From Streptomyces capitiformicae (GTDB taxonomy: Bacteria > Actinomycetota > Actinomycetes > Streptomycetales > Streptomycetaceae): a DNA stretch of 64,000 nucleotides. Of the stretch, positions 39,029 through 63,608 are shown in pieces. Both the position numbers and the translations under genes were made by a program. Location: assembly GCF_002214185.1 (NCBI RefSeq), contig NZ_CP022161.1, positions 6,765,486-6,829,485 on the forward strand, read 5' to 3'. The notes beneath the pieces are model-generated. The model did not search any database. It saw only the letters and a program-made list of their open reading frames with translations, and was not told the DNA's origin. Each line of letters opens with the position of its first letter. Positions within the stretch are counted from its first letter, which is position 1.

Positions 39029-39535
<507 letters not shown>

Positions 39536-39561: not shown

Positions 39562-40791
39562 TCAGCGGCCCAGCACCAGGGCCGAGGTGAAGCCGCCGTG
39601 GCCGCGCGCCAGCACCAGGGCATGGCGCAGCGGCAGCTGTCGGGGACCGTCGGTGACCAGGTCGATCTCGAGGCCGGGCGCCGGCCGGCGGGTGCCGGTG
39701 GTCGGCGGGACGACTCCGTCGCGCAGGGCGAGCAGCGCCGTGGCCACGTCGAGTGGTGCGCCCCCGCCGTAGAGCCGCCCGGTGAGCGTCTTCGGCGCCG
39801 TGACCGGGACCGCCGAGGGCCCGAAGAGCGCCGCGAGGGCCTCGGCCTCCGCGCGGTCGTCGGCGGGCAGCCCGGCGGCGTCGGCGAAGACCACGTCGAT
39901 GTCCCCGGGGGCCAGCCGTGCTGCCCGCAGGGCCTGCTCGGCCACCCGGCGAAGTGCCCGGGGCCGCCCCGAACCGGGCGGCGGGTCGAACCCGGCGGCG
40001 TGGCCGAGCACCCTTCCGTAGCCCGGTCCGGCCCCTCGCGCCTCGGCGGACTCGGCGCTCTCCAGGACCAGGATCGCCCCGCCCTCGCCGGGGACGTACC
40101 CGCGGGCCTCGGCGTCGAAGGGCAGATAGGCCCGGCCCGGGTCCTGGGAGGTGGAGAGCCTGCCGGTCGAGAGCTGCGCGGTGAGGCCGTACGGGCACAG
40201 CGAGGCGTCCGTGCCGCCGGTGAGCACCAGCCGGGCGCCCTTGTCGGTCAGCCGCTTCGCCTGCGCGACGGCGTCGAGCCCGCCGGCCTGCTCACAGGCC
40301 AGCACCCCGCACGGACCGCGCATCTTGTGACGGATGGACAGTTGTCCGGTGGTAGCCGCGTAGAACCAGGCGATGGACTGGTAGGCGCCCACCCAGGAGG
40401 GATCGTGCTGGTAGAGCGCGGTCATCTCCCGCTGCCCGAACTCCGTGCCGCCCGAGGACGAGGAGGTCACCACGGCCATCTCGTACTCGGGAAGCGCGGA
40501 CGGGTCGACCTCGGCGTCCGTGAGCGCCTCCTCGGCGGCCGCGAACGCCAGATGCGTCCAGTGATCGGTCTGGGAGACCAGCCGGTTGGGCCGCACGGCG
40601 CTCCCGGCGTCGAACCCCGGTACCTCGCCCGCCAGTTGGACCGGGTACCCGGACGGGTCGAAGCGCTCGATCCGGCTGATCGCCGACTTGCCGGCGAGCA
40701 CCGCGGACCAGTGGGCCTCGACCCCGATACCGGTGGGGGCGGTGATGCCGATGCCGGTGATCACCGGCGCGGCGGTCTGTGCGGCCGTCAT
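39562..40791 (-). CDS. Type II PKS chain-length factor (KS-beta)
   Basis: A 409-aa ketosynthase-like subunit. The active-site Cys is replaced by Gln168 (LACEQAGG), the hallmark of the chain-length factor, which pairs with KS-alpha and sets polyketide length, and which makes the starter acetyl-ACP from malonyl-ACP in acetate-primed systems. Remaining thiolase-fold segments ([29 protein letters not shown]) are intact. The ATG at 40791 overlaps the KS-alpha stop by four bases, so the heterodimer subunits are made in equal amounts. Chain length cannot be reliably read by eye. Confidence 0.95.
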
Positions 40792-42077
40792 GCCCCGCTC
40801 CTTCCGGCCGCCGCGGCCGCCGTGCCCGGGCGGGCCAGCAGCATCGCGGTCTGGAACCCGCCGAATCCGCTGCCGACGCTCAGCACCACGTCCATCGCGT
40901 GATCACGGGCGGTGAGCGGCACATAGTCCAGGTCGCACTGCGGGTCGGAGTTGTGCAGGTTCGCCGTCGGCGGCACGACCTGTCGCTGCAGGGCGAGCGC
41001 GCAGGCCGCCACCTCGATGGAGCCGATGGCCCCGAGCGAGTGGCCGACCATCGACTTGATGGAGCTCACCGGGATGTCGTAAGCGTGCTCTCCCAGGCTC
41101 CGCTTGAACGCCGCCGTCTCGTGCCGGTCGTTCTGCTTGGTGCCGGAACCGTGGGCGTTGATGTAGTCCACGGCCGTCGGGTCGAGCCGTGCCTGGTTCA
41201 GGGAGACCGAGATCGCCTCGGCCATCTCCCGGCCGTCGGGCTTCAGCCCCGTCATGTGGTACGCGTTGCTGCGCCCGGCGAAGCCGACGATCTCGCCGTA
41301 GATCCGGGCGCCGCGAGCCTCGGCGGCCTCCCGCTCCTCCAGGACCAGCACGGCCGACCCCTCGGCGAGGACGAAGCCGTCCCGGTCGCGGTCGAAGGGC
41401 CGGGATGCGTGCTCCGGATCGGCGTTGTTCGGAGTCGTCGCCTTGATCGCGTCGAAACACGCCGAGGTGATCGGCGAGAGCGGGGCGTCCGTGGCGCCGG
41501 CGAGCGCCACGTCCGCACTGCCCTCCTCGATCAGCTGCACGGCGTGGGCGATCGAGTCCAGACCTGAGGTGCAGCCCGTGGAGACCAGGGCGACCGGCCC
41601 CTCGGCGCCGACCTCCCAGGCCACCTCGGCGGCCAGGGTGCTGGGCACCATGTAGCCGTACAGGTGCGGTACGCCGTACTCGTGGTCCACGAGCCACTTC
41701 CGACCGCGGTCGCTGAGGACGACGTACTCCTCCTCAAGCCCCATGGTGCAGCCGACGGCGCTGCCGATGCTGACGGTGATCCGCTCGGGCGGGAGCGCGG
41801 CGAGGTCGAGTCCGCTGTCCTCCAGAGCCTCCCGGGCGGAGACCACGGCGAACTGCGCGGCACGGTCCATCCGCCGCACCTGCCGGGAGTCGAGCCCCGC
41901 GGCGGCCGGGTCGAAGTCGACCTCCGCGGCGACCTGCGAACGGAAGGGAGCCGGGTCGAAGAGGCTGATCCGCCGGGTGGCGGTGCGCCCTTCGGACAGC
42001 AGCTCCCAGAACGCCTCCCGGCCCACCCCGCCCGGCACGACCGCACCGATACCGGTGATGACGGCCCGTCGGCTCAC
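40788..42077 (-). CDS. Type II PKS ketosynthase (KS-alpha)
   Basis: A 429-aa beta-ketoacyl synthase. The catalytic triad is present: Cys169 in [11 protein letters not shown], His in [12 protein letters not shown], and His in [12 protein letters not shown]. It performs decarboxylative condensations of malonyl-ACP to a poly-beta-ketone with the CLF. The GTG at 42077 overlaps the cupin stop; it gives the standard [11 protein letters not shown]-terminus. The gene order TcmI-type cyclase, cupin, KS-alpha, CLF, aromatase resembles whiE/sch/cur spore-pigment clusters, but the number of tailoring genes is greater here. Confidence 0.96.
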
Positions 42078-51985: not shown

Positions 51986-53725
51986 GTGTCCAGCTACCGG
52001 AACTTCACCGAACTCATGCTGGCCAGGGCCGCGCAGGCACCTGGCGGGGATGCGCTGCTCCTGCTGCCGGACAGCATGGAGCGCGGACGACCGAAATCGG
52101 TTTCCTACCGGAGCCTGGACGCATCCGTCCGCAGGCTCGCCGGCTGGCTTCAGAGTCAGGACGCCGCCGGTGAGCGAGTGTTGCTCCTGCACCGGTCCCG
52201 CCACCAGTTCGCCGTCAGCTTCCTGGCGTGTCTGTACGCCGGGGCCATCGCCGTTCCCGTCCCACCGGGCGGAGGCCGTGCCCATCACGAGGAGCGGGTC
52301 GCCGGGATCGTCAAGGACACCACCCCGTGCCTCACGCTCACGGACGCCGCCCTCGCACCCGAGGTGTCACGGCTGCTGGCCCGTTGCGGATACGGGAACA
52401 CGCCCTGTCTGCCCGCCGACGCGGTGCCGACCGCACCGCCCTGGAGCCTGCCGGAGCTGTCGTCGGACACCGTCGCCTATCTCCAGTACACCTCCGGTTC
52501 CACCGGACACCCGCACGGAGTGATGGTCACCCACGAGAACCTCCTCGCCAACCAGCAGGCGATCCATGACGCGCTGGGCACGCAGGCCGGCGCCCGGATG
52601 GGCGGGTGGCTCCCCCTCCACCACGACATGGGCCTCGTCGGCCAGCTACTGCACCCGCTCTGGCTGGGCGGCACCTCCGTGATGCTCCCGGCCGAGACGT
52701 TCATCCGGCATCCGGTGCGCTGGCTGGAGGCCATCGGCCGGCATGGGATCACCGTCAGCGGTGCCCCGGACTTCGCGTACGACCTGTGCCTGCGGAGGGT
52801 GACCGACGAACAGCTCGACGGCCTCGACCTCTCCGGCTGGCACACCGCCGTCTCCGGTGGCGAACCCGTCCGCGCGGAGACCCTGCGGGACTTCGCCGAG
52901 CGGTTCGCACCCGCCGGGTTCCGGGCCGGAGCCTTCTCGCCGTGCTACGGCCTGGCCGAAGCCACACTGCTGGTCTCCGGCAGCCGGGGCACACAACCGT
53001 GTCACGAACGCACGGTGGACGCCGAGGCCCTGGAACGGCATCTGTGGCATGAGCCGACTCCGGGGCGGCCGACACGGCGTCTGCCCTCCTGCGGCCCCGC
53101 CGCCGGCTGTGAGATCCGGATCGTCGACCCGGAGACCGGGGCGGTGGTGCCGGACGGGCGGATCGGTGAGATCTGGGTCCGCGGCGGCGGGGTGGCCGCC
53201 GGCTACTGGCGTGACCTGGGCAAGACGGCGCGGTTCTTCGGCGCCTCGACGGCCGACGGCGAGCGCGGCTTTCTGCGCACAGGCGACCTGGGCACGCTGG
53301 ACGACGGCCACCTCTATGTGACCGGCCGGCTCAAGGACATGATCGTGGTGGCGGGGCGCAATCTGTACCCGCAGGATGTGGAGCGCACGATACAGCAGGT
53401 CAACGCGCTGTTCGGCCCGGGCACCGCCTTCGCCGTGCCCGGTGAGCGCGAGCGCGTGGTGGTCGTCCAGGAGCTGCGCACACGCAGTGGCTACGATCTC
53501 GACCTCGCCGCGCTCGCCACACAGGTGGAGCGCTGTCTCACCGACGAGTTCGACGTACGGGTCGGCGGAGTCCTGCTGGTCCGTCCCGGCACCGTACGCC
53601 GCACGACCAGCGGCAAGGTGGAGCGTTCCGCGATGCGTGAACTCTTCCTGCGCGGCCGGATCCGTCCGCTGCACCAGCGGCTCGACACCGATCTGTCGAC
53701 GGGGCCGGCCGCGCTGACCGGATGA
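51986..53725 (+). CDS. Fatty-acyl-AMP ligase-like enzyme (FAAL)
   Basis: A 579-aa adenylate-forming enzyme. P-loop YTSGSTGHPHGVMVTHENL, core LPLHHDMGLVG (typical of FAALs), CYGLAEATLLVSG, TGDLG and the A10 Lys in TSGKVERSAM are all present. FAALs activate a fatty or aryl acid as acyl-AMP and pass it to an ACP rather than to CoA. The GTG at 51986 has GGGGGAGG upstream. With adjacent ACP-AT, the second ACP, PPTase and thioesterase it makes a route for loading a non-malonyl acyl group, probably a polyketide starter or acyl decoration. Confidence 0.92.
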   Translation: MSSYRNFTELMLARAAQAPGGDALLLLPDSMERGRPKSVSYRSLDASVRRLAGWLQSQDAAGERVLLLHRSRHQFAVSFLACLYAGAIAVPVPPGGGRAHHEERVAGIVKDTTPCLTLTDAALAPEVSRLLARCGYGNTPCLPADAVPTAPPWSLPELSSDTVAYLQYTSGSTGHPHGVMVTHENLLANQQAIHDALGTQAGARMGGWLPLHHDMGLVGQLLHPLWLGGTSVMLPAETFIRHPVRWLEAIGRHGITVSGAPDFAYDLCLRRVTDEQLDGLDLSGWHTAVSGGEPVRAETLRDFAERFAPAGFRAGAFSPCYGLAEATLLVSGSRGTQPCHERTVDAEALERHLWHEPTPGRPTRRLPSCGPAAGCEIRIVDPETGAVVPDGRIGEIWVRGGGVAAGYWRDLGKTARFFGASTADGERGFLRTGDLGTLDDGHLYVTGRLKDMIVVAGRNLYPQDVERTIQQVNALFGPGTAFAVPGERERVVVVQELRTRSGYDLDLAALATQVERCLTDEFDVRVGGVLLVRPGTVRRTTSGKVERSAMRELFLRGRIRPLHQRLDTDLSTGPAALTG

Positions 53726-53749: not shown

Positions 53750-54994
53750 GTGAACCACTTACCGGATGGTGAGCGGCACGAGCGGGAGTTCCTCACCTGG
53801 CTGACGGAGCGGATCTCGGACTATGCGCACCGGGAGGTCGGGCAGGACGCACTGCTCGTGGAGTGCGGACTCGACTCGGTCGCCCTGCTGAGCCTCTACG
53901 GGGACATCGAGGCGGAGTTCGGCTCGCTGATCGCCCCCGAGGACATGTGGGTGTACCCCACGGTCCGCGAACTGGCCCGCCATCTGGCGGTGCGCCGGGT
54001 ACGGATGAGCCGGCGCGACCGGGTCCGGGCGGTGTTCGTGTTCGTCGGTCAGGGCAGCCAGCACCCGGGCATGGCCGAGGGCTTCTACCACCACTCCACC
54101 GGATACCGGGACTCCCTGACCCGGGTGGACGAGGTGCTGCGGCCGTATCTGGGCTGCTCGGTGGCGGAGTTGATCCTCAGTCGGGATCCCGGCATCGACC
54201 GGACGTCGCTGGCCCAGCCGGCCCTCTTCGCCGTCGAGTACGCCCTGGCGCGGACCCTGCTGGATGCCGGGGTGCGTCCGGTGGCCGTGCTCGGCCACGG
54301 AGTCGGAGAGTTCGCCGCGGCGACGGTCGCCGAGGCACTCACTCTGGAGCAGGCGGCGCGACTCGTCGCGCTGCGGGGCGAGTTCATGCAGCGCATGCCG
54401 GACAGCGGGGGAATGCTGGCGACCTGCGCCGATCCCCACGAGGCGGCGGAGGTCGCCGCCTCCGAGCCCGGGGTGACCATCGGCGCCATCAACGCCGCCC
54501 GGGCCACCGTGCTCTCCGGCGATCTCGATGGTCTGGCACGGGTCAGGAACAGGCTGGCGGACGCCGGTATTTCCAGCCGACTCCTCCCGGTCGCACACGC
54601 CTTCCACTCCCCGCGCATGGAACCGGTCGTCCCCAAGTTCACGGCGGTGGCACGGCGATTCCCCGGCGCTCAGCCACGCGTCCCCTTTTTCTCCACGGTG
54701 TACGGACGGCAGCTGGCGGAGCCGCTCGGCGCGGCGTACTGGGCCCGGCAGATCACCTCACCGGTCCGGTTCGCCGAAGCGGTCCGGCGGATGCTGGCCC
54801 AGCATGCTCCCACCCATGTGGTGGAGATCGGCCCGAAGATCGTGCTCACCCCGTTCCTGCGCCGGATCGGCGGCGCCGACGGACCGCGCTGCCTCGCGGT
54901 GTGCCGGGGACCGGAGAGCAACGCGGTGGATCTGGCCGGGGTGCTCTCCGCGCTGAACGCCGGACCGCTCGCCGAAGACACCTCGGAGTTGTGA
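53750..54994 (+). CDS. ACP-acyltransferase fusion lacking the catalytic serine
   Basis: A 414-aa didomain protein. Residues about 10-80 form a carrier protein with the attachment Ser43 in ECGLDSVALLS. Residues about 95-390 form a malonyl/acyltransferase fold: FVFVGQGSQHPGM, VAHAFHSPRME (catalytic His), and a final VEIGPKIVLTPFL. The nucleophile elbow, normally GHSxGE, reads GHGVGE: residue 184 is Gly (codon GGA at 54299-54301). Simple acyl transfer is therefore not expected; a scaffold or hydrolase-dead decoy role is possible. GTG at 53750, GGAGGGG upstream. It follows the FAAL gene by 24 bp. Confidence 0.9.
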   Translation: MNHLPDGERHEREFLTWLTERISDYAHREVGQDALLVECGLDSVALLSLYGDIEAEFGSLIAPEDMWVYPTVRELARHLAVRRVRMSRRDRVRAVFVFVGQGSQHPGMAEGFYHHSTGYRDSLTRVDEVLRPYLGCSVAELILSRDPGIDRTSLAQPALFAVEYALARTLLDAGVRPVAVLGHGVGEFAAATVAEALTLEQAARLVALRGEFMQRMPDSGGMLATCADPHEAAEVAASEPGVTIGAINAARATVLSGDLDGLARVRNRLADAGISSRLLPVAHAFHSPRMEPVVPKFTAVARRFPGAQPRVPFFSTVYGRQLAEPLGAAYWARQITSPVRFAEAVRRMLAQHAPTHVVEIGPKIVLTPFLRRIGGADGPRCLAVCRGPESNAVDLAGVLSALNAGPLAEDTSEL

Positions 54995-55029: not shown

Positions 55030-55644
55030 TCAGGGTATCCAGCCGGCGTCCTTGGCGATCCGTATGGCGTCGATCCGGTTGCGTGCGTTGAGCTTGGCGA
55101 CGATGGTCGTGAGGTAGTTGCGGACGGTGCCCTTGGTCAGGAAGAGGGCGCCGGCTATCTCGTCGGCGTCCGCCCCACGGGCGGCGAGCCGGAGCACCTC
55201 GGTTTCGCGGGGCGAGAGCGGGGACTCCATCGCCTCCCACGCGGAGAGCGCCAGTTGGGGGTCGACGACCCGCTTTCCCGCGGCCACCGCCCGGACCGAG
55301 TGGGCGAGTTGGTAGGGAGGTGCGTCCTTGAGGAGGAAGCCGCAGACGTGGGCCGACAGAGCCCGGCGGACCATTCCCGGACGGCCGAGGCTGGTGAGGA
55401 TGAGAACACGGCAGGCCGGAAGCCGTTCGTGCAGTTCCGCGGCGGCGGTGATCCCATCGGTTCCGGGCAGATCGATGTCGACGACGGCTACGTCGGGCCG
55501 TGTGCGCAGCGCGGTCTCCACGATGAGGTCACCGCGGTCCACGGAGGCGACGACCTGAAGGTCCGGTTCCAGTTCCAGCAGGGCGATCAGTGCTCCCCGG
55601 ACCATGTGCACATCCTCGGCGAGCAGAATCTTCACCGACAGCAT
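55030..55644 (-). CDS. NarL/FixJ-type response regulator
   Basis: A 204-aa response regulator with a receiver domain (LLAEDVHMVRGAL; phosphoacceptor Asp56 in VVDIDLPGTDG; the Lys in GFLLKDAPP) and a C-terminal LuxR-type helix-turn-helix (LSPRETEVLRLAARGADADEIA, LTKGTVRNYLTTI). It pairs with the histidine kinase gene 43 bp upstream on the same strand. Similar DesR-type regulators sense membrane state; the stimulus here is not known. It converges on the ACP-AT gene with only 35 bp between stops. Confidence 0.93.
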   Translation of the reverse strand: MLSVKILLAEDVHMVRGALIALLELEPDLQVVASVDRGDLIVETALRTRPDVAVVDIDLPGTDGITAAAELHERLPACRVLILTSLGRPGMVRRALSAHVCGFLLKDAPPYQLAHSVRAVAAGKRVVDPQLALSAWEAMESPLSPRETEVLRLAARGADADEIAGALFLTKGTVRNYLTTIVAKLNARNRIDAIRIAKDAGWIP

Positions 55645-55686: not shown

Positions 55687-56961
55687 TTATGCGATCTTTT
55701 CCATGGCAGTGGTTGCTGCCGTGGAACAGATCGGTCGGACAGGTACCTCTGCCACAAGGCGAAACCGGCCGTCGTCGTGCACCCCGGCCGTCAGCCGGCC
55801 GCCGACCGCGTCCAGCCGGGTGCGAAGATTCCCCAGGCCGCTGCCGCTCGATGAGGCGGACCGGTCTTTCTCGACCACCCCGTCGTTCACCAGGACGAGC
55901 CGTACGGTCTCCCCTTCCCGGACGGCCCTGATGTCGCACGACTGTGCCTTGCTGTGTCGCAGGATATTGGTGATCCCCTCCCGCAGGGTGGTCGCGAGCG
56001 CCGTATCCACGCCTGGGTGCAGCCGACCACAGGTTATGTCCACGGTGGTCCGTATGTCCGCGGCCGCCATGACCGTCGCGGCCGACTCGGCCTCGTCCGC
56101 CAGCGACATCTCGCGATAGCTACTGGCCACCAGGCGCGCGTCCGCGACCGCCTGCCGGGACACCTCCAGCACCGAGGCCACCTCATCGAGGGCGCGCCCG
56201 GGCTGGGCCACTATCAGACGGTGGATCAGCTCACACTTCAGCGTGATCGCGGAGAGGCTGTAACCCAGCAGATCGTGCACGTCCCTGGAGAAGCGCAGGC
56301 GCTCCTGAGCGACGGCCATACGAGTCAACTCGGCCCTGGCGGCATGGACTTCGTGAACCAGGTCGGTCAGCCGGGTGAGCCCGTAGAGGACGAGGCCGGT
56401 CAGCAGGGTGGTGATGGGCGCGTAGAGCTGGCTGATCACCGGAAGGTGGAGCACATGGGCGTAGACACCGATCGAGGCCGCCACCAGACCGAAGAGGATC
56501 CAGGACAGCGGACCGGGCAGCATGAGCAGGATCGAGGCACCGAGTATCCCGCCCATGCTGCCCCAGGTGATGCCGAACCACGCGAACGGCAGGAAGGTGA
56601 GGACGGCCTGGATGCCGAGCGTGAGGACCTTCCACCGCAGAGGCCGACGACGGGTCCTCGGCGAATTGTGCAGCAACTGCATCCCGAAGAGGGCCGTCAC
56701 ACAGACCAGACACAGTGTCAGCTTGCCCGGCCCGGGCTTCTCCCACAGGACGTTGAGCAGGAGAACGGCCGTATAGCCGCACAGGACGGTAATGGTGATG
56801 ATCTTGGATACGAGTGTTGCCGGAATGTCCCCGCCCGGGAGGGGTCTTCGCGTCCCGTCCTCGGGTATGGGAGCGTCTAACCCCTGTTGCTCGGTTCCGG
56901 GTCTCTGGAGGACATCGTCATGATTGACTCCGGTTTCCGGGTGGCGAAAGGGGTCAGCCAT
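55687..56961 (-). CDS. Membrane sensor histidine kinase, NarL-type
   Basis: A 424-aa kinase. After a 45-residue hydrophilic lead there are five to six hydrophobic segments (about residues 50-195), then a HisKA_3 dimerisation domain (AVAQERLRFSRDVHDLLGY, phospho-His in RDVHDLLG) and an HATPase_c domain (LREGITNILRHSKA, SGLGNLRTRL). The partner is the adjacent response regulator. The sensed signal is unknown; the multi-helix input domain suggests a membrane or lipophilic cue. ATG at 56961. Located 85 bp downstream of the YcaO gene, so co-transcription with the RiPP-like pair is possible. Confidence 0.92.
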   Translation of the reverse strand: MADPFRHPETGVNHDDVLQRPGTEQQGLDAPIPEDGTRRPLPGGDIPATLVSKIITITVLCGYTAVLLLNVLWEKPGPGKLTLCLVCVTALFGMQLLHNSPRTRRRPLRWKVLTLGIQAVLTFLPFAWFGITWGSMGGILGASILLMLPGPLSWILFGLVAASIGVYAHVLHLPVISQLYAPITTLLTGLVLYGLTRLTDLVHEVHAARAELTRMAVAQERLRFSRDVHDLLGYSLSAITLKCELIHRLIVAQPGRALDEVASVLEVSRQAVADARLVASSYREMSLADEAESAATVMAAADIRTTVDITCGRLHPGVDTALATTLREGITNILRHSKAQSCDIRAVREGETVRLVLVNDGVVEKDRSASSSGSGLGNLRTRLDAVGGRLTAGVHDDGRFRLVAEVPVRPICSTAATTAMEKIA

Positions 56962-57046: not shown

Positions 57047-59329
57047 TTACGCGAACATGGGGATCGGGTTCAGATCCTCATAAGTGACCGGTTGTTCGCG
57101 AAGACCGAGGCGCACCGGCACGTCGTACAGACGTCCCGGAGCGAACCTCGCCCAGTAGTGCCGCAGGCCCGGCACCACGACCTTGACCACCGGCAGGCCC
57201 ACGTCGGGCCGCGTCTGGTCGAGGACGAGCAACTCCATCCCGTGCCGCGCCACCAGAGCGCTCGCCGCCTCGACGTCCTGGAGCAGATCGGTGCGGAGGG
57301 CGTGGGGGAAGTGGGTCGGTGGCCGGGGTGACTCGGCCGGGTCGGGCAGCAGGTACGGCTGGTTCCTGACGGTCGCCCGGGTCCACCAGGCCAGGATCTC
57401 CGGGTCGTCCACACCGTATCCGGTGCCGTCCGCCCGCGCGCCGGCCGCGGGCGACAGCAGTTGTCCCATCTCGGTGACCGCCCGGCGCAGGGCGAGCCGC
57501 GGGTCGAAGTGCGCGCCGAAGCCGAACGCGATGTCCTCCGCCGGTTTGTCGGTGCGCCGGGACAGTGCCACGACCACGGGGATGCCCAGGTCCGAGGTGA
57601 GATCCAATGCCCACAGCTCGCGGTTCAAACGCCCGTACGTGTCCCGTAGTTCGGTGAGCCAGGGCTCGTCGAAGGCGTTCAGGTCGAGCGCGGGCTGCCT
57701 GGTCCGGTTGTACCACCACAGGGCGACCGCGTCCCGCTCCACCAGTTCCAGGAAGCCCTGGACGATCGCGTCCTCCAGGCTGCTCCCGGCGGCGTTGCCG
57801 TTGGAGTCCGCCCAGGGCAGGCCCTCGGGCGCGGGGTTGGTGAAGTAGAGCATCGACGTGGGCAGCAGCCGCTGTCGGCCCGTGGCGAGGGAGTGCACCG
57901 GCGTCCACTCGATGGGGCGCCCGGTATCGAAGGGGGCGCACACCTGCTGGAACGCCGAGTGCGTGGCGTTCCAGCCGGCGCGATCACGGAACTGCCGTTC
58001 GTGGAAGAGTTGGCAGGCGTTGGGGTGGACGGCCACCCCGCCGAGCTCGTCGAGCGATCCGACAACGACCGCTTCGTCGCCCTGCCGGGTTCCGCAGAAA
58101 CGTTCCACCGCCTCGCAGAGGGCGCCGACCTCCGCCTCCTCCGCGGTCACGCCCTTGCCGCCGCTCAGCCGCCTCAGGCCCGTGCGGACCTCGCCCGGAG
58201 TGCGTCCGGCCAGTGCCAGATTGTGGCCGGAGAGAAAGCAGGTGAGGCCCTCGGGGGCGTTCGGATCCTGGGTGATCTCCGAGACGATCCCGGTGACCGG
58301 ATCGGCCAGATGCCCGTGACGCTCCAGCACCGAACGGGACGACAGCGCACGGTGGTTCGAGCCGGTGTGCCGTGCCTTGGGGCGGGACACCAGATGTATC
58401 GGCTGGAACGCGCGCCGGGCCACGAGGGAGCTGTCCCCGCACACCGGGCACTGCGGGCGGCGGGTCACCGGGTGGTGCGCGGAGCGCAGCGTGCAGGTGT
58501 CCAGCGTGTACACGTGCTGCTGGTTCTCGTGCCGTACCCCCGCGATCCACTTGGCGGCCTCCAGCACCGCTGCCTGGAGGCCCAGGGCCCGGCCCGCGGC
58601 CAGTGAGGCCTCCGGTACCGACATCGGCCCGGCGGACCCGACGGCGCGGCACACCGCCTGCTCCGCCGAGCGGTGCGCACGCAGCCGGTGTGCCAGACAG
58701 GACCAGCAGGGGCCCTCCCCGGGCGAGAAGACCGGCCCCAGCCAGGTCTCCGCGCCGCAGGGCTTGGCCGGCAGCCACGGACGCGACGCGGCCCGCATCC
58801 GCAGGTCGACCTCGCCCAGCTCCGGTGCGAGATAGTCCTCGCACAGGACGAGCGAGAGCCCCGCGCCGGGGCCCTCGCCGTCGCCCGCGACCGTGAGTCC
58901 CGCCGCCCGGCAGGCCTCGACGGCGGCCGCCCGGTCGGCACTCCCGACGGCGATCACCTCCACCGGCGTACGGGCGATGTTGGTGATGGCGGCACTGCCG
59001 TCGCCGAGCAGATCCCAGTAGGCCCGGCAGGCCGTGTCCGCCGACTCCGGCGTGGCCACGTCCCGGTAGCCGATGAGATTGGCCTTCGCCAGCTCTCCCA
59101 CCACCCGGCCGGCCTCCGGGACCGGCATCCAGGAGGCCGCCTCGCGCAACAGGCAGGGCAGTGTGCGGGTGCCGTCCAGCAGCGGAGCGAGCGCCGCGAC
59201 GTGGGGGCCGTGCAGCACCGTCACGCCGCGGGCGGAGAGCAGGTACACGGCCTCGTCGCCGATCGCCTCGACCCTCAGATGGCGTTTGAACCCCACGGTG
59301 GGTACGTGGGGAGCCGGAATCTGGCTCAC
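57047..59329 (-). CDS. TOMM cyclodehydratase: fused ThiF-like C domain and YcaO D domain
   Basis: A 760-aa protein. The N-terminal ~310 residues form the ocin-ThiF-like leader-binding/E1-like part with Zn-binding pairs CWSC (208-211) and CPVC (294-297). The C-terminal ~430 residues are a YcaO domain with ATP-site elements EVGALCEAVERFCG, SLEDAIVQGFLELVERDAV and RRAVTEMGQ. It ends LNPIPMFA, a partial form of the PxPxP tail of azoline-forming YcaO enzymes. Such enzymes turn Ser/Thr/Cys of a precursor peptide into azolines with ATP. GTG at 59329 overlaps the 101-aa peptide gene by four bases. No flavin dehydrogenase gene is adjacent, so azoles are not assured. Confidence 0.92.
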   Translation of the reverse strand: MSQIPAPHVPTVGFKRHLRVEAIGDEAVYLLSARGVTVLHGPHVAALAPLLDGTRTLPCLLREAASWMPVPEAGRVVGELAKANLIGYRDVATPESADTACRAYWDLLGDGSAAITNIARTPVEVIAVGSADRAAAVEACRAAGLTVAGDGEGPGAGLSLVLCEDYLAPELGEVDLRMRAASRPWLPAKPCGAETWLGPVFSPGEGPCWSCLAHRLRAHRSAEQAVCRAVGSAGPMSVPEASLAAGRALGLQAAVLEAAKWIAGVRHENQQHVYTLDTCTLRSAHHPVTRRPQCPVCGDSSLVARRAFQPIHLVSRPKARHTGSNHRALSSRSVLERHGHLADPVTGIVSEITQDPNAPEGLTCFLSGHNLALAGRTPGEVRTGLRRLSGGKGVTAEEAEVGALCEAVERFCGTRQGDEAVVVGSLDELGGVAVHPNACQLFHERQFRDRAGWNATHSAFQQVCAPFDTGRPIEWTPVHSLATGRQRLLPTSMLYFTNPAPEGLPWADSNGNAAGSSLEDAIVQGFLELVERDAVALWWYNRTRQPALDLNAFDEPWLTELRDTYGRLNRELWALDLTSDLGIPVVVALSRRTDKPAEDIAFGFGAHFDPRLALRRAVTEMGQLLSPAAGARADGTGYGVDDPEILAWWTRATVRNQPYLLPDPAESPRPPTHFPHALRTDLLQDVEAASALVARHGMELLVLDQTRPDVGLPVVKVVVPGLRHYWARFAPGRLYDVPVRLGLREQPVTYEDLNPIPMFA

Positions 59330-59631
59330 CACCGGGCAGCCGCCGCCGGGACGTTCGGCTCCTCGGGGTTGGGGCCGACGGTGGTCCAGGTCGGAATGGC
59401 CATGGCTCCCGCGGCGGACCGGCTCAGGTCCTCGATGACCACGGCGGTACCGGTGGAAGCCGGCTCCGTGGCAGGCAGACCGAACTCGGCCAGAACGAGG
59501 GCCGGGCTGTTCGCGTAGCGCTGGGCCAGCTCCGGCTCCAGGCCGGCGCGGGCGGTCAGTTCGGCGAAGCGGAGATCTTCCTCGGTGAGGTGCACGGTGA
59601 CGGGCGCGGGCTTCACGACGGCGATGTCCAT
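59326..59631 (-). CDS. Putative TOMM/RiPP precursor with nitrile-hydratase-like leader
   Basis: A 101-aa protein. Residues about 19-55 (DLRFAELTARAGLEPELAQRY, then ALVLAEFGLP) resemble the nitrile-hydratase-alpha-like leader of NHLP precursors. The remaining ~45 residues would be the core: Ser/Thr/Gly/Ala-rich, ending PTWTTVGPNPEEPN and Ala/Arg/Trp, with no Cys. Only Ser/Thr could be cyclised, mainly STGT, SRS and PTWTT. A leader-cleavage GA/GG-type site is not clear; AAGAMA lies in the core. It overlaps the YcaO gene start by four bases. A carrier or partner-protein role instead of a true precursor remains possible. Confidence 0.7.
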   Translation of the reverse strand: MDIAVVKPAPVTVHLTEEDLRFAELTARAGLEPELAQRYANSPALVLAEFGLPATEPASTGTAVVIEDLSRSAAGAMAIPTWTTVGPNPEEPNVPAAAARW

Positions 59632-59756
59632 GATCGGGTCCTTCCCACGGTACGAGACTCACGTTCGACGGATTCGAGCGGATGCTCCATGTCTGTGCGG
59701 TGAGATTTTCAGCCGAGCGGAGCGAGCCAGGGGAGTGTGAGGGTCATGGGGTGACT

Positions 59757-59782
59757 ATGAAGTTTTCATGATTGCGTTCATG
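59757..59782. promoter_or_regulatory. TTCATG direct and inverted repeats between peptide and SARP2 genes
   Basis: ATGAA-GTT-TTCAT (59757-59769) is a 13-bp palindrome that overlaps the first of two TTCATG copies (59765 and 59777; 12-bp period). The position suits control of the divergent precursor gene or SARP2. This is the lowest-GC patch of the spacer. Confidence 0.45.
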
Positions 59783-59893: not shown

Positions 59894-60688
59894 ATGGAGA
59901 TCAAGGTATTGGGACCACTGACCGCCCACGAGCATGGGGTCTCCGTGGTCCCCAGCGCGGCCAAGCCCCGGCAGATACTGGCCCTGTTGGCCCTGCATTC
60001 GGACCACGTCGTCACCGTCCCGACGCTGATGGCGGAGATCTGGGGTGAGAGGATTCCGCGCAGTGCGTCCACGACACTGCAGACGTACATCCTCCAGCTG
60101 CGCCGCAAGATCGCGGCCACTCTCGCCGGGGATCCCGCCCGCGACGCGAAGGACGTCCTGGTCACGCAGTTCGGCGGCTATCTGCTGCGGGTGCAGCCCG
60201 GCCAGGTCGACGTCCAGGAGTTCGAACAACTGGTGGCCGACGGCCGGCTGGCATTCGACGCCGCCGACTACCGCACCGCCTCACGGTTGCTGGGAAACGC
60301 TCTGGCCCTGTGGCAGGGCCCCGCGCTGGTGGACGTACGGGCGGGCAGCATGCTCGAACTGGAGGTGCTGCGCCTGGAGGAGAACCGCATGGCCGCGCTG
60401 GAGCGGCGGATCGACGCCGACCTGCGGCTGGGACGGCACGCGGAAGTGGTCCCGGAGCTACGGGTCCTGACCGCACGTCACCCGATGCACGAGCGGTTCT
60501 GTGCGCAACTCATGGTTGCCCTGCACCGGTCGGGCGGGTCCTGGCGAGCCTTGGAGGCGTACCAGCGGCTGCGCGGTGCCCTCGTCACGGAGCTCGGCCT
60601 GGAGCCCTCTCCGTCGCTACGGCAGCTCCACCACGCGGTGCTCTCGGGCGACACGGCACTGGACCAGCAGACGGCGGGAGTCGACTAG
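59894..60688 (+). CDS. SARP-family pathway activator, second copy
   Basis: A 264-aa SARP, paralogue of the one at 45558 (MEIKVLGPLTAHEHGVSVVP, KPRQILALLALHSDHVVTVP, LQTYILQLRRKI, FGGYLLRVQPGQVDVQEFE). The winged helix and activation domain are complete. ATG at 59894 has AAAGGGGAGAG upstream. It is divergent from the RiPP-like pair. Its TAG stop (60686-60688) is part of a CTAG that is the left end of a MITE-like element, so the element inserted exactly at the end of the gene without harming it. Confidence 0.94.
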   Translation: MEIKVLGPLTAHEHGVSVVPSAAKPRQILALLALHSDHVVTVPTLMAEIWGERIPRSASTTLQTYILQLRRKIAATLAGDPARDAKDVLVTQFGGYLLRVQPGQVDVQEFEQLVADGRLAFDAADYRTASRLLGNALALWQGPALVDVRAGSMLELEVLRLEENRMAALERRIDADLRLGRHAEVVPELRVLTARHPMHERFCAQLMVALHRSGGSWRALEAYQRLRGALVTELGLEPSPSLRQLHHAVLSGDTALDQQTAGVD

Positions 60689-60827
60689 GGCGTGTTGCGA
60701 AAGTCCCGTCGTCCGCCCGGAGGGCGGGCCGGGCGGCGTCATGAGGGTCCCCCGCTCGAGCGAAGCCGAGAGTGGGGGAGCGTGCCAGGCGTCGGGCGGC
60801 AGGCGGGACTTTCGCAACACGCCCTAG
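60685..60827. mobile_element. 143-bp MITE-like element with 24-bp perfect inverted repeats
   Basis: The ends 60685-60708 and 60804-60827 are perfect 24-bp inverted repeats (outer part CTAGGGCGTGTTGCGAAAGT). The 95-bp interior includes the dispersed CGCTCGAGCGAAGCCGAGAG repeat. CTAG at each end may be the target duplication. No coding sequence, so it would need a transposase in trans. The IS481 element uses its right-hand CTAG as target. Confidence 0.85.
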
Positions 60828-61777
60828 GTGTATTGCCCTGTGAGGTTGGGGACGCGGCTGGCTGGTGGTTTGCCTGCGAGTGCGGTGTGTCCGCGGTGGT
60901 GATTGTAGGTGTGCAGCCAGCGGGGGAATGCCTCGCGTCGTTCGGTCTCTGTGCGGTAGGGGCGGGCGTAGGCCCATTCGTCGAGCAGGGTGCGGTTGAG
61001 GCGTTCGACCTTGCCGTTCGTCTGCGGCCGGTAGGGCCGGGTGCGCTTGTGGGTGATCCCGGCCGCGGTGAGGGTGTCGCGCCAGAGGCGGGACTTGTAG
61101 CAGGAGCCGTTGTCGGTCAGCACGCGTTCGACGGTGATTCCGACGCCGGCGAAGAATGCCTGGGCCCGGGCCCAGAACGCGGTGGCGGTCTCTTTGCGTT
61201 CGTCGGTGAGGATCTCGCTGTGGGCCAGGCGGGAGTGGTCGTCGACGGCGGTGTGGATGTAGCTGTAGCCGGCCCCCGAGCGGGTCCTTCGGCCCGCCTG
61301 CCGGCCCAGAGTCTTGTGTCCGCCACCGTCGGGGATGTTGCCGAGCTTTTTGATGTCTACGTGCACCAGCTCGCCCGGCCGCCGGCGTTCGTAGCGGCGT
61401 ATGACCCGGCCCGTGGCCCGGTCCAGGTGCGTGAGGCGGGCCGGACCGAAGCGGGTCAGCACGCGGTGCACGGTGGAGGGCACCAGCCGCAGCAGGTGCG
61501 CGATGCGGGCCGGTCCCCAGCGGCGCAGGACACGGACGTTGATGATGCGCCGTTCGGTGCGGCCGGGCGTGCGGCGGGGGCTGGTGTGCGGGCAGCTGGA
61601 GCGGTCGGCCATGCCTGCTTCGCCGAGCGTCCGGTAGCGGTCGGCCCAGCGCCGGGCGGTGGTCGGCGAGACCTGGAAGCGTTCGGCAGCCCGGCGCAGG
61701 GGCCAGCCGTCCTCGACCACGCAGCGGGCCAGACGCAGACGGCCGGTCTCGGTCAGGGGTGCATTACGGTGGGGCAC
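60824..61777 (-). CDS. IS481-family DDE transposase
   Basis: A 317-aa transposase. N-terminal helix-turn-helix (RLARCVVEDGWPLRRAAERF, VSPTTARRWADRY) and an integrase core with DDE residues in HVDIKKLG, VLTDNGSCY and GKVERLNRT. Start: GTG at 61777 gives the usual MPHRNAPLTETG N-terminus; a GTG at 61813 is possible. The reading frame crosses the left end of the element and uses the TAG inside the duplicated target CCTAGG as its stop codon. Intact, so the element may be active. Confidence 0.92.
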   Translation of the reverse strand: MPHRNAPLTETGRLRLARCVVEDGWPLRRAAERFQVSPTTARRWADRYRTLGEAGMADRSSCPHTSPRRTPGRTERRIINVRVLRRWGPARIAHLLRLVPSTVHRVLTRFGPARLTHLDRATGRVIRRYERRRPGELVHVDIKKLGNIPDGGGHKTLGRQAGRRTRSGAGYSYIHTAVDDHSRLAHSEILTDERKETATAFWARAQAFFAGVGITVERVLTDNGSCYKSRLWRDTLTAAGITHKRTRPYRPQTNGKVERLNRTLLDEWAYARPYRTETERREAFPRWLHTYNHHRGHTALAGKPPASRVPNLTGQYT

Positions 61778-61896
61778 GAGGGCCTTTCGGTCGGTGTTGA
61801 CGTCGCAATCCACACCGAACTCGAAAGGCCCTCACCTGTTCAAGATCCCTCAGCCGAGACCTGCCTCACCCGTCCACAACCTCCCGAGCCAGAACA
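60829..61896 (-). mobile_element. IS481-family insertion sequence
   Basis: A complete IS of 1068 bp. It is flanked by 6-bp direct repeats CCTAGG (60823-60828 and 61897-61902), which fit the NCTAGN target known for IS481. The 26-bp terminal inverted repeats (60829-60854 and 61871-61896) match at 19 positions, with TGT at the outer tips. It encodes one full-length transposase. The insertion lies between SARP2 and the carboxylase beta gene. Confidence 0.88.
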
Positions 61897-62018: not shown

Positions 62019-63608
62019 ATGACGACCTTCGATGAACTCCTGGCCACGGCACCCCCGCCCGACCTGCGCCGGGCCACCGCGGAGCTGAATCTTCTGAAGG
62101 AAGAGGTGAGCCGGGGCCCCGACCCGGACGCCACACGCCGCCAGCACGCCAAGGGAAAGCTCACGGTCCGGGAGCGTCTCGACCTGCTCTTCGACCCGGG
62201 CACGTTCACCGAGATCGAGCCGCTGCGCCGCCACCGCGCCACCGGCTTCGGCCTGGAGGACCGCAAACCGCATGGCGACGGTGTGGTCATCGGCTGGGGG
62301 CAGGTGCACGGCCGCACCGTCTTCGCCTACGCCCACGACTTCCGCGTCTTCGCCGGCGCTCTGGGAGAGGCCCACGCCGCGAAGGTCCACAAGGTGATGG
62401 ATCTGGCCGTGTCCGCGGGGGCGCCCCTGGTCGGTCTCAACGACGGAGCCGGGGCCCGCATCCAGGAGGGCGTCACCGCGCTGGCGGGCTACGGCGGGAT
62501 CTTCCAGCGCAACACCCGGGCCTCGGGGGTCATCCCGCAGCTCAGCGTCATGCTCGGCCCGTGTGCGGGCGGCGCCGCCTACTCCCCGGCCTTGACGGAC
62601 TTCGTGTTCATGGTCCGCGAGACCTCCCAGATGTTCATCACCGGACCCGACGTGGTGCAGGCGGTGACCGGCGAGGAGATCACCCACAACGGTCTCGGCG
62701 GCGCGGACGTGCACGCCGGCATGTCGGGCGTGGCCGGGTTCTGCTACGACGACGAGACCGAGTGCCTGGAGGACGTCCGCTTCCTGCTGTCGCTGCTGCC
62801 GCAGAACAACCGCGAGCTGCCCCCGGAGGCCCACAGCGCCGACCCGGCCGACCGGCGCACCGACTCCCTGACCTCCCTCGTCCCCGCCGACCCCGCCCAG
62901 GCGTACGACATGCGCGCCGTCATCGAGGAGATCGTCGACGAGGGCGAGTTCTTCGAGGTGCACGAGGCCTGGGCCCGCAATGTGGTGTGCGCCTTCGCGC
63001 GGCTCGGCGGGCAGGTGGTGGGCGTCGTAGCCAATCAGCCCGCCACGCTGGCCGGGGTGCTGGACATCCACGGCTCGGAGAAGGCGGCACGATTCGTCTC
63101 CATCTGCGACGCGTTCAACATCCCGCTGGTGACACTGGTGGACGTGCCGGGTTTCCTGCCGGGGGTGGACCAGGAGCACGGCGGGATCATCCGGCACGGC
63201 GCGAAGCTGCTGTACGCGTACTGCAACGCATCCGTGCCCCGGATCTCCCTCGTGCTGCGCAAGGCGTACGGCGGCGCCTACATCGTCATGGACTCCCGCT
63301 CGATCGGGGCCGATCTGTCCTTCGCCTGGCCGACGAACGAGATCGCGGTGATGGGGGCGGAAGGGGCTGCGAACGTGGTCTTCCGGCGGGAGATCGCCGC
63401 CGCCGACGACCCTGAGGCGACTCGCGCCCGGCTGGTCGAGGGGTACAAGTCGGAGCTGATGCATCCGTACTACGCCGCGGAGCGGGGGCTGATAGACGAC
63501 GTCATCGATCCCGGCGACACCCGCCGGGTGCTGATCCGCTCGCTGGCCATGCTGCGGGGCAAACACACCGAGCTACCGGACCGAAAGCACGGCAACGTGC
63601 CCCTGTGA
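62019..63608 (+). CDS. Acyl-CoA carboxylase carboxyltransferase (beta) subunit
   Basis: A 529-aa PccB/AccB-type carboxyltransferase with both crotonase-like halves (RERLDLLFDPGTFTE, NDGAGARIQEGV, LGPCAGGAAYSPALTDF; and DVPGFLPGVDQEHGGIIRHG, RKAYGGAYIVMDSRS). Residue 422 is Ile in the AYxVM position where the S. coelicolor propionyl enzyme has Asp and the acetyl-accepting enzyme has Ile; this predicts use of acetyl-CoA and malonyl-CoA output. The epsilon subunit is at 51752. It would feed extender units to the PKS. ATG at 62019, no evident Shine-Dalgarno. Confidence 0.93.
   Translation: MTTFDELLATAPPPDLRRATAELNLLKEEVSRGPDPDATRRQHAKGKLTVRERLDLLFDPGTFTEIEPLRRHRATGFGLEDRKPHGDGVVIGWGQVHGRTVFAYAHDFRVFAGALGEAHAAKVHKVMDLAVSAGAPLVGLNDGAGARIQEGVTALAGYGGIFQRNTRASGVIPQLSVMLGPCAGGAAYSPALTDFVFMVRETSQMFITGPDVVQAVTGEEITHNGLGGADVHAGMSGVAGFCYDDETECLEDVRFLLSLLPQNNRELPPEAHSADPADRRTDSLTSLVPADPAQAYDMRAVIEEIVDEGEFFEVHEAWARNVVCAFARLGGQVVGVVANQPATLAGVLDIHGSEKAARFVSICDAFNIPLVTLVDVPGFLPGVDQEHGGIIRHGAKLLYAYCNASVPRISLVLRKAYGGAYIVMDSRSIGADLSFAWPTNEIAVMGAEGAANVVFRREIAAADDPEATRARLVEGYKSELMHPYYAAERGLIDDVIDPGDTRRVLIRSLAMLRGKHTELPDRKHGNVPL

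Follow-up and report, generated by a model that had tools for sequence, protein, structure and literature searches.

A peptide-YcaO-kinase-regulator cassette at a type II polyketide synthase locus of Streptomyces capitiformicae as a candidate azol(in)e peptide signalling circuit

A fused cyclodehydratase and its precursor peptide lie in a type II polyketide synthase locus

We analyzed a 64,000-nucleotide stretch of Streptomyces capitiformicae DNA (contig NZ_CP022161.1, positions 6,765,486 to 6,829,485; "the window" refers to this whole stretch), in which a gene for a fused E1-like/YcaO enzyme is preceded by a gene for a 101-amino-acid peptide (Table 1). The peptide open reading frame (ORF; 59631-59326) stops with TGA and the YcaO ORF starts with GTG at 59329 (stop at 57047, minus strand), the junction ...TGGTGAGCC giving a 4-base GTGA overlap. 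A sequence-only reading of the same DNA had placed this overlapping pair in a type II polyketide synthase (PKS) locus, flanked by genes for a SARP, a FAAL and a carboxylase; ORFs and profile matches confirmed the arrangement, including all three flanking genes. Besides the ketosynthase KS-alpha and the chain length factor (CLF), the PKS locus encodes acyl carrier proteins (ACPs), ketoreductase-like short-chain dehydrogenases/reductases, cyclases and anthrone oxygenases, and KS-alpha, CLF, ACP and SARP, the components of a SARP-linked type II PKS cluster, are all present. Behind the YcaO gene, on the same strand, follow a histidine kinase gene and then a response regulator gene, both of which that reading had left unmentioned. 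Precursor, modifying enzyme, kinase and DNA-binding regulator are thus encoded together in the window. Hydropathy predicts four transmembrane segments for the kinase, which lie close together with no large domain between them.

Table 1. Positions of the cassette, its operator-like site and neighbouring genes in the window
Feature	Position	Strand	Basis
Precursor peptide gene, 101 aa	59326..59631	-	ORF and homologues at the same place in relatives
VVIEDL motif, residues 64-69, LVIEDL-like, before the core; candidate cyclodehydratase recognition sequence	59425..59442	-	Family motif
Core TWTT (residues 81-84), where the family has [CST]x[CT]	59380..59391	-	Core comparison
Fused E1-like/YcaO cyclodehydratase, LynD/TruD type, 760 aa	57047..59329	-	Profiles and alignment
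Histidine kinase, HisKA_3, His229; candidate receptor of the modified peptide	55687..56961	-	Profile, synteny, covariation
NarL/LuxR-type response regulator	55030..55644	-	Profile match, synteny
SARP-family activator, divergent from the peptide operon	59894..60688	+	Profile; start per gene caller
Operator-like dyad ATCATGAAAACTTCATAGT, SARP/peptide intergenic region	59754..59772	-	25.7 bits
Type II PKS KS-alpha	40788..42077	-	Homology
Type II PKS chain length factor (KS-beta, CLF)	39562..40791	-	Homology
FAAL-like AMP ligase, proposed regulon member	51986..53725	+	Profile match
ACP-acyltransferase (ACP-AT) didomain, proposed regulon member	53750..54994	+	Profile match
Acyl-CoA carboxyltransferase subunit, proposed regulon member	62019..63608	+	Profile match
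IS481-family transposase	60824..61813	-	Profile match

The enzyme resembles LynD and TruD

As judged from sequence, the window enzyme is a fused cyclodehydratase of the LynD/TruD type, as found in thiazole/oxazole-modified microcin (TOMM) pathways. It matched the leader-binding profile TIGR03882 with 146 bits (cut-off 36.9), TIGR03604 SagD with 276 bits (cut-off 219) and PF02624 with 339 bits. Of the ThiF-like/YcaO fusion proposed earlier, the YcaO and TOMM leader-binding parts held, whereas the ThiF match itself was weak (E 0.046). Residues K392, E406, E409, E528, E531, E620 and Q623, which we take to be the ATP/Mg residues, were invariant in 17 family members and are the same in LynD. LynD aligned with the window enzyme over residues 10-758 (533 bits) and TruD reached 525 bits. 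The LynD and TruD systems (PDB 4v1t, 4bs9) share with the window the fused E1-like/YcaO architecture and a small adjacent precursor, and the alignment has in common four invariant cysteines of the E1-like half (C208, C211, C294, C297), the SGGKG lysine and the CEAVER, ELVERD and TExxQ blocks. Differences from LynD/TruD are the LVIEDL-like leader motif and an operon that contains a histidine kinase and usually a response regulator. Proteases of the PatA/PatG type were not among the annotated recurrent families of the loci, no profile search having been aimed at them. The enzyme is predicted to form azolines on the precursor peptide encoded next to it.

The pair belongs to a cassette that is widespread in actinobacteria

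The compared set comprised 147 loci (136 unique), drawn from the genomes of the genus, the best 80 of at least 569 confirmed relatives of a scan, and the window; gene order was assessed in the 124 unique loci whose sequence covered three or more genes ahead of YcaO and four or more behind it. The recurrent unit is peptide, YcaO, sometimes a SagB-type gene, histidine kinase and LuxR-type regulator, often with a divergent SARP gene. A kinase gene was found at +1 to +4 in 115 of the 124 loci, a response regulator gene in 99 and both in 97, while a SARP gene occupied -3 to -1 in 78. The window pair is therefore one copy of a widespread cassette, and its recurrence in syntenic order across the genus places it beyond a chance neighbourhood. 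In 30/124 loci a SagB-type gene stood at +1 to +2, a further likeness to cyanobactin systems, the name resting on PF22767 ThcOx and nitroreductase matches of one representative. KS-alpha occurred within the compared sequence of 31/124 loci; since most stretches extended about 10 kb to each side and the KS-alpha of the window is itself 15 kb off, a count of 91/124 loci without KS in that sequence overstates the absence. FAAL-like genes were present within -10 to +20 genes in 49/124 loci.

Precursor peptides share a leader motif and a patterned core

In 106/127 loci, a regular expression detected an LVIEDL-like motif in an ORF whose end lies close to the YcaO start. By eye, 16 of the 21 missed loci also had a precursor-like ORF (12 of 17 loci that were re-read, plus L016, L018, L022 and L093), bringing the count to 122/127; no clear precursor ORF could be seen at L155, L158, L164 (contig end), G038 and G361. 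After removal of duplicates and of seven peptides without the coded motif, the 106 peptides yielded 90 distinct cores. Cysteine was present in 82 of these, and 74 contained [CST]x[CT] after the motif (shuffled mean 25.7, s.d. 4.0, maximum 38 in 1000), a pattern picked after viewing the peptides, so that the shuffle corrects for composition and not for that choice. It started at position 11-13 after the motif in 64 of the 74 cores. The window core reads SRSAAGAMAIPTWTTVGPNPEEP..., and relatives with 79% and 77% YcaO identity have ...VVPTWTVVAP... and ...AIPTWCIASP..., respectively. The window threonine thus occupies the position at which the latter, a close relative, has a cysteine (TWC). Several precursors carry more than one core: tandem cores appear as DNA repeats in L112 (39 bp, 4.1 copies), L135 (36 bp, 3.6 copies) and L136 (42 bp, 3.4 copies), which helps to delimit the mature peptide, and in L110 and L111 motif and core are present twice, a motif copy standing ahead of each core. 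As a separate observation, a locus with a distant YcaO (45%; L091, G345:C79) encodes a cyanobactin-like precursor of 34 aa that contains ELSEEE and has ICYPPTW as its C terminus.

The peptide had earlier been called NHLP-like (nitrile hydratase leader peptide). Its only NCBIfam match was TIGR04351 TOMM_nitrile_2 over residues 21-52, and Pfam gave no match. Its leader region matched TIGR04351, as did those of three among six further precursors tested (30.5-57.5 bits), all four below the curated cut-off of 65 (window peptide, 44.1 bits); the three short-leader precursors tested had no match. NHLP precursors have a double-glycine leader end and a dedicated exporter. The window peptide contains no GG, and an ABC-ATPase-like gene was found by regular expression within six genes in just 2/81 loci, the window being among the 79 without; MFS-family genes occurred in 13/81 and MMPL-family genes in 10/81. 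The NHLP-like label thus holds only in part, the leader-region likeness standing below the cut-off, and the reading as a classical exported NHLP peptide was dropped for want of a double-glycine site and of ABC exporter genes beside the peptide. The genome of the window has another YcaO locus (L005, G000:C1:10320000-10338000), which provides the contrast. As in the window, a fused YcaO enzyme (39% identity) lies behind a small precursor-like ORF, which ends ...GGLAGGGGTSYCCNPCCCQS, but there, by eye, HlyD-like and ABC-transporter-like genes follow, and the locus looks like an exported TOMM system.

Proximity to type II PKS genes is strong and not exclusive

YcaO relatives (E <= 1e-60) occurred in 115 of 392 genomes of the genus, in five of them only at <47% identity. 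Searching near KS-alpha in other genomes, as the sequence-only reading had proposed, revealed a recurrent, nonrandom proximity: 55/121 YcaO places lay <40 kb from KS-alpha (a count that omits one row, the second fragment of the G344 locus), and in 28 single-contig genomes 16/30 places did so, compared to 0.42 expected if placement were uniform. Of the places with <47% YcaO identity, 9 in all, none was that close. The 66 far places are an upper bound, as assemblies are fragmented; 36 of them were fetched and checked for KS-alpha (type I PKS genes were not sought), and for 28 of these 36, whose contigs reach 40 kb or more to either side, no KS-alpha (E <= 1e-110) came closer than 40 kb. The pair thus occurs without type II PKS genes in many relatives, which is one part of what that reading had named as grounds for doubting its proposal; the peptide machinery is not restricted to PKS loci, and the link to type II PKS genes is real without being exclusive. 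Both kinase and regulator were retained within -2 to +4 of YcaO at 26 of the 28 KS-alpha-free places. By eye, gene sets at such loci included sulfate activation (G041), a 2-oxoacid:ferredoxin oxidoreductase (G162) and a glycosyltransferase with a monooxygenase (G418).

The core covaries with the sensor part of the kinase

Mantel tests were run with a stricter automatic choice of precursor (85 of the 136 loci, thinned to 69), and partial correlations control for YcaO distance (n=66 unless stated), related loci not being independent data points. Core distances followed those of the kinase sensor (partial r 0.35, 0/1000), with the exceptions given below, while leader distances did not (-0.10), and the core tracked neither the response regulator (0.00, n=57) nor the SARP (-0.02, n=36). 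The leader followed the E1 domain when the catalytic domain was controlled for (0.29, 0/1000, n=69) and not the catalytic domain given E1 (-0.02, n=69). The linear core-sensor value was 0.35 in SARP-adjacent (n=35) and other loci (n=31) alike. At similar YcaO distance, sensors were closer in pairs of loci with similar cores; this held in each of six distance bands and was clearest between 0.20 and 0.44, and the kinase domain showed no steady direction across these bands. We read this as putative ligand-receptor covariation atop shared descent. YcaO distances correlated with those of the kinase at r 0.90 and with those of KS-alpha at 0.51 in the same 27 loci, and with those of the SARP at 0.79 (24 loci).

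An operator-like site lies between the SARP and peptide genes

The SARP/peptide intergenic region measured 181-358 bp in 69/73 loci and contained a conserved block, CAGTGA...TCATGAAAATGTCAT..., with an operator-like TGA-N5-TCA dyad. CAGTGAG occurred in 35/65 intergenic sequences, compared to a maximum of 10-12 for any 7-mer in ten shuffles. A position matrix built from 28 sites found one strong copy in the window; the only other place above 9 bits (11.8, at 39208) lay inside a coding gene. Among held-out loci, which share ancestry with the training loci, 46/90 had a site of at least 12 bits upstream of YcaO (shuffled mean 0.4). Elsewhere in 1.8 Mb the matrix found 35 distinct places (44 rows, both dyad strands being counted), 32 of which were intergenic; 12 of them, in 12 loci, were located at +5.0 to +5.3 kb, and in G162 this site has a minus-strand gene on one side and a plus-strand operon on the other, lying in the gap that separates them. 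A 15-base pattern matched exactly only once in the 11-Mb genome of the window, at the cassette. Across 18 whole genomes it matched with zero mismatches in 10, once each and always at the cassette; with one mismatch allowed, 17 of the 18 (not G252) had a match at the cassette, plus a few elsewhere.

Such an inverted dyad suits a NarL/LuxR-type regulator. By held-out class, the site was present in 26/42 loci with SARP and response regulator, 8/10 with SARP only, 17/39 with response regulator only and 3/7 with neither. Since sites occur in loci lacking one or both neighbours, neither is strictly needed, and response regulator and SARP are both candidate binders. A second dyad-like sequence, TGAAAATCTCA, was noticed by eye nearer to the peptide start (window ~59700-59713, minus strand); it scores below 9 bits in the matrix.

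A self-made peptide signal as the probable role of the cassette

The cassette recurs in many Streptomyces beside different biosynthetic clusters and therefore resembles a self-made peptide signal that activates clusters. We regard it as probable that the cassette produces an azol(in)e signal of the ribosomally synthesized and post-translationally modified peptide class, which would be sensed by its own two-component system and drive the SARP gene or a biosynthetic operon. Leader and VVIEDL motif would hold the precursor to the E1-like half of the LynD-type enzyme, and the YcaO half would cyclize Cys, Ser or Thr residues of the short C-terminal core to azolines, probably a threonine of IPTWTT in the window and a cysteine in most relatives; this predicted step is strongly supported by the enzyme family. 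Where a SagB partner is present, azolines would be oxidized to azoles. The co-encoded histidine kinase may then sense the processed peptide with its membrane domain, a step suggested by synteny, by the covariation and by the dedicated site. The kinase would phosphorylate the LuxR-type regulator, which in turn would bind TGA-N5-TCA dyads between SARP and peptide genes and raise expression of the peptide operon (positive feedback) together with that of the SARP gene, or directly that of a biosynthetic operon. The SARP would switch on the type II PKS genes. The wider proposal seems to us evenly balanced: that portable peptide-YcaO-kinase-regulator circuits may form an actinobacterial family of azol(in)e autoinducers, with lineage-specific cores and matched sensors, gating aromatic polyketide and other clusters.

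Several observations weigh against a peptide signal. The window core lacks cysteine, and LynD and TruD prefer cysteine. Within -4 to +8, no response regulator was found in 20/124 loci (12 of which, L100, L106, L107, L109-L113, L123, L135, L142 and G065, keep the kinase) and no kinase in five, and G345:C100 (L177), with a YcaO 77% identical to that of the window, has neither kinase nor regulator while keeping SARP, peptide and YcaO. Export and cleavage of the peptide are unexplained, an ABC-ATPase-like neighbour being so rare. The rank-based core-sensor value was 0.17 in the SARP subset and 0.37 in other loci. Given YcaO, the leader tracked the kinase domain of the histidine kinase (0.35, 0/1000), to which the core was weakly related overall (0.08, 22/1000) and more closely in the subset without SARP (0.27, 0/1000); the core also tracked the E1 (0.19) and catalytic (0.20) halves of the enzyme equally, and all these data points share the nonindependence of related loci. 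YcaO distances correlated more highly with those of the FAAL-like ligase (0.81, 19 loci) than with those of the response regulator (0.74, 17 loci). Finally, 44/90 held-out loci had no 12-bit site, the site was commoner with an adjacent SARP (34/52) than without (20/46), and it was present in 11/17 loci without an adjacent response regulator.

The cassette could instead make a stand-alone bioactive azol(in)e peptide, a second product beside the polyketide, with the two-component system and SARP controlling both and sensing something else. A normal TOMM cyclodehydratase and the multicore precursors of relatives are what such a product would use, and two-component system and SARP genes are common in biosynthetic clusters of this kind. 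We nevertheless hold this to be unlikely: no ABC exporter gene is conserved, unlike in L005, and covariation of the core with the kinase sensor beyond YcaO would be unexpected unless the product were also the inducer. A peptide that is not released, and whose target is the kinase (reached from membrane or cytoplasm) or the SARP, would make the circuit a feedback timer and not a secreted density signal. The same lack of a conserved ABC exporter gene would suit it, as would the closely spaced transmembrane segments of the kinase. Housekeeping, MFS or MMPL transporters might export it, though, and the failure of the core to track SARP or response regulator argues against these two as peptide targets; we consider an intracellular role distinctly improbable.

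The sequence-only reading had listed a peptide-polyketide hybrid and YcaO chemistry on a carrier among its options. In a chemical link of this kind, the modified peptide or one of its residues would be a building block or cofactor, for instance a starter unit, or YcaO would act on a carrier protein. The strong KS-alpha proximity is in favour of such a link, as is the FAAL-like gene, whose distances track those of YcaO. The many long contigs without KS-alpha, with their varied neighbours, count against it, as does the closer agreement of YcaO with the kinase than with KS-alpha. A precursor ORF adjoins YcaO in nearly all loci, and leader and E1 domain covary, so that the peptide is the most likely substrate. 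Kinase and regulator are the steadiest partners, also at places without KS-alpha, so that joining of the peptide or of YcaO chemistry to the polyketide found no support and ranks as very improbable.

Relation to known signalling systems

Autoinduction by modified peptides through two-component systems is known from nisin-NisRK, agr, ComQXPA and planosporicin. Like these, the cassette unites in a single operon the genes for a precursor, its modifying enzyme, a sensor kinase and a regulator, and its core covaries with the sensor. It differs in its predicted azol(in)e modification, its actinobacterial host range and its tie to SARPs and polyketide clusters, and in that no adjacent ABC exporter was seen in 79/81 loci. 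Enzyme and regulators belong to known families. In the open-access literature searched (mostly titles and abstracts), most subscription papers falling outside this scope, we recognized no description of the cassette or of their joint use in an azol(in)e-peptide circuit of actinobacteria with a tie to SARPs and polyketide clusters. In PMC8988807, "Tomm" is the name of an author. Hormone-like control of antibiotic clusters in Streptomyces is known mainly for small molecules of the gamma-butyrolactone type. If the proposed circuit is real, a peptide signal of ribosomal origin, modified with rings and matched to a receptor of its own, would add a new layer of control and could provide a practical key to waking silent clusters, which might be activated by adding the right small modified peptide.

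Further observations

A stand-alone protein family of ~210 aa was found in 16/124 loci (e.g., L058:13382-14014, minus strand). By eye it resembles the N-terminal part of SagB proteins; the L142 copy had no Pfam match and the L058 copy no NCBIfam match. The eight inspected loci with this protein show no full-length SagB, and in these eight the operator-like site is located ~5.0-5.3 kb after the YcaO start. In the window, the IS481-family transposase gene sits between the SARP and carboxyltransferase genes, which adjoin each other in several type II PKS relatives; the transposase may separate the carboxyltransferase gene from its promoter.

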